Source: a virus. Taken from it: 64,000 nt of DNA. Location of the stretch: positions 1 through 64,000 of the IMG/VR virus record IMGVR_UViG_3300047557_002741, one strand, 5' to 3'. The notes below the pieces were generated by a model, which worked only from the letters and a program-made list of their open reading frames with translations, had not been told where the DNA came from and searched no databases. Position 1 is the stretch's first letter. The number at the start of each line of letters is the position of its first letter. A program made the position numbers and the translations under genes. Of this stretch, positions 4,489-32,108 are shown one piece after another.

Positions 4489-5027
4489 ATTTCTAATCTT
4501 AGAAGTCTATATGTAGTTATGCCAGAAATTCCAGTTTCTGGAGTAGCTGTTAATTTGTAAGTTAAACCACTTATTGTTGCACCAACCGAAACAATTTGTG
4601 AAGGATCGTACATAATTCCATATTCTTGAGAATATGCAGTTGTTCCATTATTCATTACAAGAACTTTTTGCACTTGAATTTTATTACCATTTTCAAAAAA
4701 TAAACTATATTCAAGAGATTTTAAATTATTAGTATCAATAGAAAAAGAATCTATATCTTCTGGAATTCCAGCAGCTGCATTAAATGTTCCATTTATTTGT
4801 ATAGAATTATTATTAACTCCCGATAAGTTAGAACCATCACCATAAAAAGTGGTTGCTGTTAAAACTCCAACAACGTTAACATTTCCAACTACGTGAAGTT
4901 TTGATGTGGCATTTCCAGTTCCTATTCCAATATAAGGAGTTGCTTCAGTTGCAATTCCAATACTTTTAGTTTCATCAGTAATATAAACAAAAGACCCAAA
5001 TTGTGATAGTTCTCTATTCTTAGACAT
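4485..5027 (-). CDS. Virion structural protein, fibre-like
   Basis: The 180-residue protein begins with a segment typical of cyanophage fibre proteins: SIGIATEATPYIGIGTGNA, then SKLHVVGNVNVVG and ATTFYGDGSNLSGV. These short glycine-punctuated beta-strands usually form trimeric beta-helical shafts ('phage tail repeat-like' segments). It contains no chaperone domain and no catalytic motif. The stop overlaps the subtilisin-like start as ATGA (4485-4488), so the two proteins should be made in similar amounts and may be partners. Preceded by an AGGAG ribosome binding site and a CTAAATA late box. Confidence 0.65.
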   Translation of the reverse strand: MSKNRELSQFGSFVYITDETKSIGIATEATPYIGIGTGNATSKLHVVGNVNVVGVLTATTFYGDGSNLSGVNNNSIQINGTFNAAAGIPEDIDSFSIDTNNLKSLEYSLFFENGNKIQVQKVLVMNNGTTAYSQEYGIMYDPSQIVSVGATISGLTYKLTATPETGISGITTYRLLRLEI

Positions 5028-5041
5028 TTGAATCTCCTATA

Positions 5042-8000
5042 TTAATATTTAGATTTTTCTTCAAGCATCTCAACTTTTAATTTGAGTTCTTTTATTGCTT
5101 CAATAATAACACCAATCAATCCACTATAATTAACAGTTTTATGATTAAAGTTATTTTCACTCACAAGTTGAGGAATAATTTCTTCTAGTTCTTGTGCAAG
5201 AACACCCATAGATGGTTTATTAGTGTCTTTCCAATTAAATTTAACTCCACGGAGATTTCCTATTAATTCAAGAGAATTAATAATAGTTTCAATATTATCT
5301 TTAAGTTTAATATCAGATCCAGAACTAATGTCGCCACCTGCGGTTATATCGCCACCAACAGCAAGACTACCTTTAGTACTATCACTTGGAATTGTAAATG
5401 AAAACGCAGTTGTATTTGTTTTTACATAAGGAGTAAGAATTCCAGTGCTCGGATCTCTTACAAAAACTGGATAATATGTAAATTGTCCTGTGGTATCAGT
5501 AACACTAATTTGATTTCCATCTCCTTTTATTCCTTGAGTTCCTTGAATACCTTGGCGTCCTTGAATACCTTGAGTTCCTTGAATACCTTGAACATTCGCA
5601 TTGGAACCTTGGATACCTTGAGTACCTTGGATACCCTGAGTTCCTTGAATACCTTGGCGTCCTTGAATACCCTGAGTTCCTTGGATTCCTTGAGTTCCTT
5701 GAATACCTTGAGTTCCTTGAATACCTTGAGCTCCTTGAGCATTTGAATCGGAACCTTTAATACCTTGAGTTCCTTGAATACCTTGAGTTCCTTGAATACC
5801 TTGGACATTGGCATTAGAACCTTGAATACCTTGAATACCTTGAGTGCCTTGAATACCTTGAGCACCTTGAATACCTTGAGTTCCTTGAATACCTTGAGTT
5901 CCTTGAATACCTTGAGTTCCTTGAATACCTTGAACATTCGCATTGGAACCTTGAATACCTTGAATACCTTGAGTTCCTTGAATACCTTGAGCTCCTTGAG
6001 CATTTGAATCGGAACCTTTAATACCTTGAGTTCCTTGAATACCTTGAGTTCCTTGAATACCTTGAACATTCGCATTGGAACCTTGGATACCTTGAGTGCC
6101 TTGAATACCTTGAGTACCTTGAATACCTTGAGGTCCTTGAATACCTTGGCGTCCTTGAATACCTTGAGTACCTTGAATACCTTGAACATTAGCATTGGAA
6201 CCTTGGATACCTTGAGTTCCTTGAATACCCTGAGGTCCTTGAGCATTTGAATCGGAACCTTTAATACCTTGAGTTCCTTGAATGCCTTGAGTTCCTTGAA
6301 TACCTTGGACATTCGCATTGGAACCTTGAATACCCTGAGTTCCTTGAATACCTTGAGGTCCTTGAATTCCTTGAGATCCTTGAATACCTTGAGATCCTTG
6401 AATACCTTGAGATCCTTGAATACCTTGAGTTCCTTGAATACCTTGGACATTCGCATTGGAACCTTGAATACCCTGAGTTCCTTGAATACCTTGAGGTCCT
6501 TGAATTCCTTGAGTTCCTTGAATACCTTGGCGTCCTTGAATACCTTGAGTACCTTGAATACCTTGGACATTGGCATTAGAACCTTGGATACCTTGAGTTC
6601 CTTGAATACCCTGAGGTCCTTGAATACCTTGGACATTCGCGTTAGAACCTTGGATACCTTGAGTACCTTGAATACCTTGAGTTCCTTGAGGTCCTTGAAT
6701 ACCCTGGGTTCCTTGAATGCCCTGAGTACCTTGAGTACCTTGAATACCTTGGACATTCGCATTGGAACCTTGGATACCTTGAGTACCTTGGATACCCTGA
6801 GTTCCTTGAGGTCCTTGGATACCTTGTCTTCCCTGAATACCTTGGGTTCCCTGAATGCCTTGAGTACCTTGAGGACCACGAATATTTCCTACGTTAGTCC
6901 AATTGTCATTTCCATCAGATACCCATAAATTACCAAGATTACTGTCAATAACACCATCACCAGCTGCAGCATCTGGCCACGCAGCAACTAACTGAGAATT
7001 TTCTGTTCCTGAAGTTAAAGGTAAAGAACCAATAATAGTTACTGAAGTTCCATCATTACCTTGAGATCCTTGAATACCTTGAGTACCTATAGTACCTTGA
7101 ATACCTTGGACATTCGCATTAGAACCTTGAATTCCTTGAGTTCCTTGGATTCCCTGAGTTCCTTGAATACCTTGTCTTCCTTGGATTCCTTGAGTTCCCT
7201 GAATTCCTTGAGAACCTTGAATACCTTGGACATTCGCATTGGAACCTTGGATACCCTGAGTTCCTTGGATTCCTTGAGTACCTTGAATACCTTGAGTACC
7301 TTGAATACCTTGAGTTCCTTGGATTCCTTGAGTTCCTTGAATTCCTTGAGTACCTTGAATACCTTGAGGTCCTTCAGTCCCTTCAGTTCCTTGAATACCT
7401 TGAGTACCTATAGTACCTTGAATACCTTGGACATTCGCATTAGAACCTTGGATACCCTGAGATCCTTGGATACCCTGAGATCCTTGGATACCTTGTCTTC
7501 CTTGGATTCCTTGAGTTCCCTGAATTCCTTGAGAACCTTGAATACCTTGGACATTCGCATTGGAACCTTGAATTCCTTGAGTGCCTTGGATACCCTGAGT
7601 TCCTTGGATTCCTTGAGTTCCTTGGATTCCTTGAGTTCCTTGGATTCCTTGAGTTCCTTGAATACCTTGGACATTTGCATTAGAACCTTGGATACCTTGA
7701 GTACCTTGGATACCTTGAGTTCCTTGAGGTCCTTGGATACCTTGAGTTCCTTGAGGTCCTTGGATACCTTGAGTTCCTTGGATTCCTTGAACATTCGCAT
7801 TGGAACCTTGAATACCTTGAGTTCCTTGAATACCTTGAGTACCTTGAATGCCCTGAGGTCCTTGAATTCCTTCACCTTGAATACCCTGAGTTCCTTGAAT
7901 ACCCTGAGTTGCTTGAGGTCCTTGAATACCCTGGGTTCCTTGAATACCCTGTATTCCTGTAGTTCCTTGTATACCTTGAATACCTTGAGTTCCTTGAATA

Positions 8001-28299: not shown

Positions 28300-30324
28300 T
28301 TATCCTACAACATTATAGATTGCTTTTACAACTAAAGTAGTCATATTATTTGGATCTTCAGATGAGAAAGATGGAACTTCTCCCTGATTAGGAGCAGCAG
28401 AAGAAGTTGGAACAGAAGTTTTAGGTGCTCCACCTCCAGTAGGAGTTGGTATAGGCACTATTGCAGATCTTGATGGAGGAGGAAGAATGGGTGCTGGAGG
28501 CGCTTTAGTTCCTAGTTTTGCTGCAGAAATAGCATCTTTTAATGCCTTATCATATTGCTCATAATTTCTGTAATCTTCTGGTTTTATAATTCTAGTTCCT
28601 GGAATTTGTGTTTTAATTCTTTGCGCTATAGCATCAGTAAAATCTCTCTCAGTATACCCACCGTAAGATGCTCCACTTGCTGCTGCTTGAGTAGTCCTAG
28701 GATCTGTCGATGAATTTGGTATCATTCTTCTTGAATGATCCATTCCAATAATTAAAGGAGCACCATCTAATGAATTTCTCAATCCATTTATAAATTCAGA
28801 CATATAATTACTATTTGCAAACCCCGAAGGGGTTTTATACTTATCAACTGCCTGCTTTAATGTCGAAAATTCAGCGAGTGCAGAAGGAGATCCAGAAGAG
28901 GTTGCAGTTTTTAATGATTTTAAATCTCTATTGACTGCAGTAGATCCTGTTCCAGGAAGTTTAGTTATTTTATTTTTTTGTGCAGATTGCGAAAGAATAG
29001 ATGCAAGTACATTCGCAAATTGACCTTGACCTATGATATGTGCTCCACCACGATAGGTACTCGTTTGAGCATCCATATGAGGAAATAAAGTTCCAACTCG
29101 ACCACCACCTTGCATTGCTTGAACACCTAATCCACCAAATTTTGGTTTATTAGTTCCGCCACCCATTGCATTCATAGCAAGTAATGTATCTCTACCCCAA
29201 AAATCACCTGCCTTATTACTCATCATTACCTCACCTTCTTGTGCGGCAATCAATCTATCATCTTTTCCAAACCCACTAACTTTAATACCTGATTTATTTG
29301 TTATCTTTCCGCCATTCATAAAGGATATATCACCAACATTTATAACTGGACCACCACCTTCTTGTTGTTGAACAGGAAAAGGTGTTGGTATTTGTGGAGG
29401 ACCAGAAATTGTTGGTATTTGAGGAGCAGTAATCTGTTTTGCTCCAGGTATTAATCCGATTGCATTATTAATTTGACCTATTAACCCACTAATTCCAGCA
29501 TTAATTCCATTTATAACAAAATTAATTGGAGACACCACCATATTCCAAAGAAATGATATAATATTATTGAGAAATCCAACGATATTATTGGCAAGACTCT
29601 TTAGTGGATTTAGTATAATTCCAGGATTTTTAAAAACAGATAATAAAAAATTCAAAGCAGAACCAATCAATATTGACATAAAAAATTGTTTGATTCTATC
29701 AAAAAAACTTACAAAAGGTTTTGCTACTTTTTCAAAAATTTTATTCGCTCCTTTAACACCAGTTTCAAGTCTAGATTCTTTTTTTCTTTTTTTATCTATT
29801 TCACTTTTCTTTCTTTGCCTTTCTTTTTCTTTCTTTTCAATATTATCTTCTTCTTTAATAGTTGATAGTAATTTTTCTAATTTATCATTAACATCTGTTA
29901 GTTCTTTTATTAAATCTTCATTCAAAAACTTAACAATTTTATTATTTAATTCAGTCTTTTCTTCTGGTTGTTCTACGCTTGGTGGAAGTAATTTTTTAGA
30001 ATCAAGTTTAACTTTTTGTGATGAAGGTGCTTGGCGATTCATCACTTTCGCAATATTAATTTTCTTTGGTTTTATTTTAAAGGCACCTGTTTTTCCCTTT
30101 ACTCTTTTATATTCATTTGTAATTAATTCAACGCTTTCGGTAGTCATTTTACTACCGGACATTCTACCTTTAATTGATGCCTCTTTTAATTCACTAGCAT
30201 ATTCTTCATACGTTAAATCAAATACATCTTCCAATCCTAAAATTGAAAGAATTTGAGAGTTTATTTCTTCTTCTACTAAATCGGAAGGTTTTTTTGGAGA
30301 AGGAGCAAGTGCATCAACCGCCAT
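28300..30324 (-). CDS. Tape-measure-like tail protein
   Basis: The 674-residue protein has a helical charged N-terminal third (coiled-coil KLEKLLSTIKEEDNIEKKEK and following basic run), a membrane-type block at about 215-275 (FFMSILIGSALNFLLSVF, IVGFLNNIISFLWNMVVS) and then a glycine-rich C-terminal half. The segment DDRLIAAQEGEVMMSNKAGDFWG is the recurring 'Gly-Glu-x-Met' signature near the end of tape measures. Paired with the next gene, which has a similar N-terminal architecture, it probably determines tail length and reaches the membrane. It is preceded by the frameshift ORF, the usual neighbour of tape measures. Confidence 0.65.
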   Translation of the reverse strand: MAVDALAPSPKKPSDLVEEEINSQILSILGLEDVFDLTYEEYASELKEASIKGRMSGSKMTTESVELITNEYKRVKGKTGAFKIKPKKINIAKVMNRQAPSSQKVKLDSKKLLPPSVEQPEEKTELNNKIVKFLNEDLIKELTDVNDKLEKLLSTIKEEDNIEKKEKERQRKKSEIDKKRKKESRLETGVKGANKIFEKVAKPFVSFFDRIKQFFMSILIGSALNFLLSVFKNPGIILNPLKSLANNIVGFLNNIISFLWNMVVSPINFVINGINAGISGLIGQINNAIGLIPGAKQITAPQIPTISGPPQIPTPFPVQQQEGGGPVINVGDISFMNGGKITNKSGIKVSGFGKDDRLIAAQEGEVMMSNKAGDFWGRDTLLAMNAMGGGTNKPKFGGLGVQAMQGGGRVGTLFPHMDAQTSTYRGGAHIIGQGQFANVLASILSQSAQKNKITKLPGTGSTAVNRDLKSLKTATSSGSPSALAEFSTLKQAVDKYKTPSGFANSNYMSEFINGLRNSLDGAPLIIGMDHSRRMIPNSSTDPRTTQAAASGASYGGYTERDFTDAIAQRIKTQIPGTRIIKPEDYRNYEQYDKALKDAISAAKLGTKAPPAPILPPPSRSAIVPIPTPTGGGAPKTSVPTSSAAPNQGEVPSFSSEDPNNMTTLVVKAIYNVVG

Positions 30325-30490
30325 TTTGTTGTTGTTTTAGTTTTTCTTCTTCCAGATGTTGTTGTAATAATGCAATATAAATGTCCCTTTCCCAAGGAAT
30401 CATATTTTCAATCTCTGTTAATGAATATTTATGGTACTGCATCAAAGCAAAATTGATTCGGAAATAATTTTCCAAATCCATATGTACCAT
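30314..30490 (-). CDS. Frameshift extension of gp26 / 58-residue ORF
   Basis: ATG at 30490, with a better-placed second ATG at 30481 (MDLENYFRINFALMQYHKYS, then LTEIENMIPWERDIYIALLQ) after AGGA. It is in the -1 frame of the upstream gp26-like gene and the frame is open back to the slippery heptamer at 30499-30505. A frameshift would give a 299-residue fusion. This layout (chaperone gene, -1 extension, tape measure) matches tail assembly chaperones of other tailed phages such as lambda G/GT. The stop overlaps the tape-measure start by 11 nt. The ORF could also be translated on its own. Confidence 0.72.
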   Translation of the reverse strand: MVHMDLENYFRINFALMQYHKYSLTEIENMIPWERDIYIALLQQHLEEEKLKQQQNGG

Positions 30491-30492
30491 TC

Positions 30493-31212
30493 CTATGCGA
30501 AAAAACTAGAAAGACCCTCCAAAACGACAGTGCTCTCTACATTAGTTTTTGGATTTTTGAGTGTGATTTCATGTGATAGTTTGGGCATCGTTTCAAAAAA
30601 CTTTTCAATTTGTTTGAACTGCATACTGTTCATTTGCTCTAGAAATTCTACCAATTCTTTTTTAGTTACATCCGATGCCGCCCAAACTTCTTCTTCATTA
30701 TAAATTTTATCAATACAAGATGAAATCAAACTAAACGATTGGTCCATATTTGTTTGATTAGACAAATCAAAATTAGTCTTAATAAATTGATCTAATGAAG
30801 GATATTTCATTTCCATTATTAGATGTTCATCAAGTTTAATTTTTTTATTATGCTCTGGATCTTTCTTTATCTTAATATCATCAATATTAATATCAACAGG
30901 AACTGAAGTTTCTCCATCATCAGGAGCAATTAAATTAACTTCTATTTTTTCGCCAACAGATTTACCACGAATATTAAGAAACAAAAATTCGATATCAAAA
31001 GTAGGAAGATTTTCTACTTTAATAGATCTTGTTTGAATGCAATTTTTTAATACTGCTTTAATTGCGTTTGAAATTTCTTTTGTGTCCTCACTCTCTAATG
31101 CTAACAAAAGAAGTTTTTCTTCTTTAACTAAAAATGGTCTGTACTTTATTTTCTGTCCAGTTGAAGGCAACTCAAGTTCATAAGTTGGGGTTGCAATTGT
31201 AGGTAAGGGCAT
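30493..31212 (-). CDS. gp26: Baseplate hub assembly protein, gp26-like (T4 baseplate family)
   Basis: The 239-residue protein resembles T4 gp26 and its relatives (PF12322): YELELPSTGQKIKYRPFLVKEEKLLLLALES near the start, a VENLPTFDIEFLFLNIRGKSVGE block, and a helical C-terminal half ending VVLEGLSSFFA. In T4 the protein is needed for hub assembly. Directly downstream in the -1 frame is a 58-residue ORF, and the last codons hold a slippery heptamer, suggesting that this protein and its extended form behave as tail assembly chaperones for the following tape-measure-like proteins. The gene is preceded by a CTAAATA late box at 31239-31245. Confidence 0.82.
   Translation of the reverse strand: MPLPTIATPTYELELPSTGQKIKYRPFLVKEEKLLLLALESEDTKEISNAIKAVLKNCIQTRSIKVENLPTFDIEFLFLNIRGKSVGEKIEVNLIAPDDGETSVPVDINIDDIKIKKDPEHNKKIKLDEHLIMEMKYPSLDQFIKTNFDLSNQTNMDQSFSLISSCIDKIYNEEEVWAASDVTKKELVEFLEQMNSMQFKQIEKFFETMPKLSHEITLKNPKTNVESTVVLEGLSSFFA
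30499..30520 (-). other. Predicted -1 ribosomal frameshift site
   Basis: On the minus strand the gp26 gene ends AGT TTT TTC GCA TAG. The heptamer T TTT TTC (30499-30505) fits X XXY YYZ in the zero frame. GGAGGG (30515-30520) lies 9 nt before it, the position of a stimulatory Shine-Dalgarno such as in dnaX. A weak stem (GGAAA/TTTCC) follows about 23 nt later. Slipping leads in frame into the 58-residue ORF. Confidence 0.7.
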
Positions 31213-31238: not shown

Positions 31239-31245
31239 TATTTAG
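31239..31245 (-). promoter_or_regulatory. Late promoter box CTAAATA
   Basis: CTAAATAATC on the minus strand, 27 nt before the ATG at 31212 and overlapping the last codon of the gp54 gene. Would start the gp26/tape-measure/hub operon. Confidence 0.6.
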
Positions 31246-32108
31246 TCCGGAAATAAACGTTCTCCAGCATAATTAGTTAATGCTCTTGTAGAACTTGCAT
31301 ATAATTCATCTCCTTCTAGTGCGCCACCAGAAAAAGCACCAGGAATATTTTGATTAATGGTATATGGATCTCCATCATATGCAGGTCCAAAACTTGTTCT
31401 GGCAGTATTTAATTCAGGAACTCCAGGTGCATTTGTATTAGATTTTATTTCTTTTGCTGGAAGAAACTTTCTTTCTCTAACATAACGAATATAAGAAAAT
31501 GAAACCGTACATTTTAATAACTGACTTTGATCATATGAAACAGGCATTGAAACCATGTTTATAGGAAATGCTCCAACAAAAGTATAATACATTACAGATC
31601 CAGCAAGATATAAATCTTTTTCAAATTTAGTTAGAAAAATATCAGTTTTGTATTCATTTGGATATATGACCCTATTATTTACATATGGACTTTTAAAATC
31701 TTGCCTATCCAACCCACTACTAAATCTCCTGCTTCCTTCACCCGAAATATAGTTCAACCATCCATCAAAAAACTCAATGACATTATAATTTCTATCAACA
31801 TAAAAAGTAAGATCCAAAGTATCATCATATATTCTTCTATAAGCCATCTTTTCAGTAACACCATGATAATCATTAGTTACTTCATGAGTTGCTAAAGAAG
31901 ATCCAGGTAAAGATGCCTCAGAACAAAGTAGTTGAATATTTGATATTATATCTCCAGAAATATCTCTACCAGAAAATTGAAGAAACTCTTTCAAATTTTC
32001 TGGTGGAGATATATCAACATGATATAATGAAGTTTGAGCAATATTAAGAACTCTAGATTTTATATCACTAACATTATAATGACGAGCGGGCGTTGGTGTT
32101 CCAGCCAT
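31242..32108 (-). CDS. gp54: Baseplate tail-tube junction protein, gp54/gp19-like
   Basis: The 288-residue protein follows the tail-tube fold shared by T4 gp19, gp48 and gp54: LYHVDISPPENLKEFLQFSG, LLCSEASLPGSSLATHEVTNDYHGV, RRIYDDTLDLTFYVDRNYNVIEFFDGWLNYI, then YYTFVGAFPINMVSMPVSYDQSQLLKCTVSFSYIRYV. The 'PGS', 'hEvtndyhGv' and 'aFPinm' blocks are diagnostic. At this place beside gp26 and divergent from gp4/gp48 it is most likely the initiator of tail-tube polymerisation. Its divergent promoter region with gp4 is only 33 bp. Expressed late. Confidence 0.8.
   Translation of the reverse strand: MAGTPTPARHYNVSDIKSRVLNIAQTSLYHVDISPPENLKEFLQFSGRDISGDIISNIQLLCSEASLPGSSLATHEVTNDYHGVTEKMAYRRIYDDTLDLTFYVDRNYNVIEFFDGWLNYISGEGSRRFSSGLDRQDFKSPYVNNRVIYPNEYKTDIFLTKFEKDLYLAGSVMYYTFVGAFPINMVSMPVSYDQSQLLKCTVSFSYIRYVRERKFLPAKEIKSNTNAPGVPELNTARTSFGPAYDGDPYTINQNIPGAFSGGALEGDELYASSTRALTNYAGERLFPD

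Follow-up and report, generated by a model that had tools for sequence, protein, structure and literature searches.

Phage lambda makes gpG and gpGT through a -1 frameshift shortly before the short form ends, and its tape measure gene follows directly downstream. In Escherichia coli dnaX, the ribosome slips on A AAA AAG, with a Shine-Dalgarno (SD)-like element ~10 nt upstream of the slip and a stem-loop downstream. Other frameshifted tail assembly chaperones are covered by the survey of Xu et al., as the PRFect paper describes it (PMC10885494). The tail-assembly chaperones of T4-like phages were named by Vladimirov, Gautam and Davidson (2022, Virology 566:9-15), a work cited here via PMC10885494 and PMC12846349. 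With reference to it, the PRFect paper states that some T4-like phages carry one short and one long, fused chaperone gene instead of frameshifting (PMC10885494), and the Adele paper mentions poly-T slip sites in the TAC-N genes of T4-like phages (PMC12846349). T4 gp51 is needed for assembly and is absent from the particle (PMC3004832). Cyanophage gp51 was described as a protein without the first ~200 residues, and gp51 as missing in Aeh1 (Sullivan et al., 2010; PMC3037559). A frameshifted gp26/gp51 chaperone is known in kind and, as far as the two later papers convey the 2022 work, in essence published. The abstract of that work is said to name genes 26 and 51, and frameshifting is reportedly kept in several T4-like groups.

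Here, we describe the gp26/gp51 junction of a T4-like marine phage (118-kb record IMGVR_UViG_3300047557_002741), of which a stretch of 64,000 nt, hereafter the window, was analysed. The first-pass annotation of this DNA had known of no statement that gp26 of T4-like cyanophages is such a chaperone pair; this was wrong, since the 2022 work made one for T4-like phages, as reported by the papers that cite it. The present analysis adds how widely the arrangement is conserved, how often start codons are lacking, an SD-like signal, the split between one-gene and two-gene genomes, and the exceptions among vibriophages.

Layout of the gp26/gp51 junction

The features of the locus are listed in Table 1. 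The gp26-like protein matched the profiles PF12322 (E=4e-74) and phrog_150 (E=3e-79). The 58-codon ORF behind it is the annotated cyanophage 'gp51', an identity missed in the first reading; it matched phrog_634, "baseplate hub assembly catalyst" (= gp51), at E=2e-28, and also positions 240-281 of phrog_150, the last 42 positions of that profile. For the 674-aa gene after gp51, the best PHROG match named tape measure reached only E=4e-5; in HTVC008M and Cr30, a nearby downstream gene is annotated as tape measure.

Table 1. Features of the gp26/gp51 locus in the window
Feature	Position	Strand	Remarks
gp54/tail-tube-like gene, directly upstream of the gp26-like gene	32108..31242	-	phrog_45 tail tube, E=1e-41
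gp26-like gene, short product (TAC-N)	31212..30493	-	239 aa; PF12322/phrog_150
SD-like GGAGGG, probable stimulator	30520..30515	-	9 nt between GGAGGG and heptamer
Slippery heptamer T TTT TTC, zero frame	30505..30499	-	T TTT TTC or T TTT TTT in 242/242 sequences with both genes
-1 frame C-terminal domain (TAC-C, cyanophage 'gp51')	30499..30314	-	61 codons after the slip, plus stop
58-codon ORF (gp51)	30490..30314	-	first ATG at 30490
ATAAATA core, putative late promoter	30426-30432	-	inside the gp51 ORF, ~100 nt before the tape-measure-like gene
Tape-measure-like gene, 674 aa	30324..28300	-	overlaps the end of the gp51 ORF; weak tape-measure PHROG matches

The gp26-like gene ends with TTG GAG GGT CTT TCT AGT TTT TTC GCA TAG. 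A -1 slip on T TTT TTC would lead into a stop-free frame (...S S F F R I G M V H M D L E N Y F...) that runs to the stop of the gp51 ORF, and the fusion of gp26 with the -1 frame would be 299 aa long. The first-pass annotation had placed T TTT TTC in the zero frame at the AGT TTT TTC GCA TAG end and GGAGGG 9 nt before it, and had predicted an open passage into a 58-residue ORF overlapping the tape-measure-like gene, with a product of about 299 residues; coordinates, frames and product length all agree with this description.

The gp51 ORF also contains an ATAAATA core that matches the cyanophage late promoter NATAAATA (PMC2984593). Among 61 distinct relatives, synonymous sites in the codons CAT AAA TAT TCA TTA hardly vary, which suggests a late promoter embedded in the ORF.

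Conservation of the slip site and upstream signal

The heptamer TTTTTTC occurred 49 times in the AT-rich window, compared with 50.4 expected. The count alone was rejected as evidence, there being no excess; since the presence of the heptamer is unremarkable here, the evidence lies in its place, frame and conservation. Loci were gathered by protein similarity to gp26 or gp51 and not by the heptamer. The 263 sequences comprised 242 (the window included) with one gp26 and one gp51 ORF, 11 of T4 type with two family members each, and 10 without a detected gp51. In eight of these 10, the contig ends soon after gp26, as judged from locus lengths, and the remaining two were Mendera and Vibrio K413. 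Below 70% identity, the 242 sequences fell into 67 clusters, and below 40% into 13.

In all 242 sequences, the -1 frame held the gp51 ORF, and the overlap contained an in-frame heptamer, either T TTT TTC (212) or T TTT TTT (30), which lay 9, 12, 15, 18 or 33 nt before the gp26 gene ends. The comparison with relatives that had been suggested in the first reading thus found the heptamer, the -1 frame and an SD-like stretch upstream all conserved, and this conservation supports its proposal of a tail assembly chaperone pair made by -1 frameshifting. The heptamer and the open -1 frame were also present in 20 named isolates: SynMITS9220M01, Mosig, HTVC008M, phiM7, DLP6, Mendera, CC2, OLIVR6, PX29, nt-1, Cr30, OspM_OC, X1, syn9, P-SSM2, S-RSM4, MED4-213, ACG-2014j, S-PRM1 and Aeh1.

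Synonymous codons at the slip site are held far beyond codon usage. The codon preceding the first Phe was NNT and the first Phe was TTT in 67/67 clusters, with heuristic probabilities from codon usage of ~1e-15 and ~1e-9, respectively, which serve as guides because the clusters are only partly independent. In the window's clade, the Ser before the heptamer Phe was encoded by AGT or TCT only, in about equal numbers and always T-ending; the Ser one codon earlier varied freely among four codons. Judged from these sequence features, a -1 frameshift at the gp26/gp51 junction is very probably real.

Predicted pairing with the anti-SD peaked at 5 to 9 nt before the heptamer, with a mean of ~-6 kcal/mol versus a background of ~0. 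It was also stronger than in synonymous resamples (-6.0 vs -4.8 kcal/mol; Wilcoxon p=1e-7). The upstream GGAGGG probably pairs with 16S rRNA and aids the slip, a likeness to dnaX, which has its SD-like element in the same upstream position. dnaX has a downstream stem-loop as well, whereas the window's clade has no conserved downstream structure: a conserved stem-loop was considered there and rejected, the consensus energy being -0.12 kcal/mol. Across the 67 representatives, downstream structure was uneven (mean z -1.26), with strong stems in some lineages. Sequences L148, L151, L174 and L089 had strong stem-loops (z ≤ -4) directly after the slip site, which are possible lineage-specific stimulators.

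Alternative routes to the gp51 domain

The gp51 ORF might instead encode a separate small protein that starts at its own ATG (30490) and is coupled to gp26 translation, the heptamer being a by-product of a conserved Phe-Phe end. The window and much of its clade have this ATG, the 58-aa gp51 is annotated on its own in databases, and a TAATG stop-start overlap exists in three Ackermannviridae vibriophages. However, no ATG, GTG or TTG stands before the conserved gp51 domain in 54 of the 67 clusters, yet conservation begins just past the slip (RIALSH...; residues RIALSHDSLENYY). Because of this lack of a start codon, frameshifting would be the only evident route to the gp51 domain in the 54 clusters. 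A Phe-Phe end, moreover, needs neither TTT-TTC nor a preceding T, and GGAGGG is ~24 nt from the ATG at 30490, too far for an initiation SD. We therefore regard a purely separate gp51 as quite improbable. Somewhat less improbable, but still unlikely, is that both routes operate in the window's clade, giving the frameshift fusion along with a free gp51 from the ATG at 30490. An open frame, the heptamer and this ATG do coexist in the window, but TTG or CTG replaces the first ATG in several members of the clade alignment, and the next ATG stands at the start of the conserved domain. That the frame break is a sequencing error or a decayed gene can practically be dismissed; no point in its favour was found, and the break is common to 242 sequences and 20 named isolates. 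Frameshifting is the preferred reading for the window.

The canonical heptamer T TTT TTY was missing in three Ackermannviridae-type vibriophages, K413 (L090), 207E48.1 (L272) and VAP7 (L273), where a TAATG overlap joins the gp26-like gene and the -1 ORF. The K413 record names no family, and its Ackermannviridae-type grouping is by similarity. These three phages possibly use stop-start coupling or a single-site slip on Phe.

Chaperone pair and comparison with T4

The gp26 and gp51 of T4 belong to the same protein family as those of the window's phage and follow the same short/long logic, but T4 has two separate genes where the window's phage has one gene and a -1 slip. T4 gp26 (208 aa) and gp51 (249 aa) both match PF12322 and are encoded on opposite strands. 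T4 gp26 retains FF close to its C terminus, but its gene lacks the heptamer and is not followed by a C-domain in the -1 frame. The match of T4 gp51 to phrog_150 extends to the end of the profile, and the protein matches phrog_634 too, all in a single frame; T4 gp51 therefore resembles a one-frame version of the fusion product, in which the join reads VFKLL.... Each frameshift-type genome checked had one PF12322 gene, and the gp26-like gene is the only member in the window's own 118-kb record, whereas T4 and its kind have two, a short gp26 and a long gp51. One T4-type sequence (L183) gave three PF12322 matches because its gp51 (4982-5758) is broken in frame into two ORFs, offset from each other by -1 close to five consecutive A, probably by an indel or a sequencing error.

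Given the one-gene/two-gene split and T4 gp51 as a one-frame fusion, the best reading is that gp26/gp51 likely encodes TAC-N and TAC-NC, a pair of tail-assembly chaperones. The AlphaFold models of gp26 and T4-type gp51 were confident, with pLDDT values of 89 and 88, respectively. In the search of the PDB with the gp26 model, the highest probability (0.77) was obtained for the HK97 tail assembly chaperone 2OB9_B (rmsd 3.0 A, 63 columns), although E was ~1, and YqbN (3KLU) stood at rank 34. The gp26 fold thus resembles the HK97 chaperone only weakly, a suggestive hint from a predicted model and not proof. The gp26 profile had no match among PDB sequences, and Foldseek found none in the PDB for the T4-type gp51 model.

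We infer the occurrence of frameshifting, its efficiency and the chaperone role alike. Most ribosomes would end at the gp26 stop codon and yield the short form, TAC-N (239 aa). On T TTT TTC, a fraction would move back by one base, probably with the aid of the SD-like GGAGGG, and read the gp51 ORF, which would add a C-terminal domain of ~60 residues and yield TAC-NC (299 aa). If lambda gpG/gpGT is a guide, both forms would attach to the putative tape measure protein of the next gene downstream and prepare it. The likeness to lambda drawn here is one of arrangement, a -1 slip close to where the short form ends, ahead of a tape measure gene in lambda and of a tape-measure-like gene in the window. 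The chaperone locus of Vandenendeviridae and Andersonviridae likewise has a -1 frameshift on poly-T at the TAC-N end, but these are other phage families with another slip motif, GTTTTT (PMC12846349). In T4, the same two forms come from two paralogues, gene 26 for the short and gene 51, in one frame, for the long. Tentatively, the short/long pair may have been reached in three ways among T4-superfamily phages and their relatives: -1 frameshifting in most lineages, the window's included; duplication and in-frame fusion in the T4 type; and, in the Ackermannviridae vibriophages, TAATG stop-start coupling that would give a free C-domain. We consider this scheme rather doubtful as a whole.

The frameshift reading corrects the annotation of many phage genomes, in which gp26 and gp51 are given as two genes or gp51 is missed. 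The C-domain is unannotated in CC2 (L088), ACG-2014j (L274), S-PRM1 (L275) and Aeh1 (L276), although the -1 frame encodes it. Cyanophage gp51 would appear to lack its N-terminal part because it forms the latter half of a frameshift product and is not a shrunken protein. In Aeh1, the gp51 domain is encoded in the -1 frame after an unbroken T TTT TTC, and no start codon is nearby, which would be why it was considered missing. For T4 gp51, long called the hub assembly catalyst, the analysis supports a reading as the long form of the chaperone.
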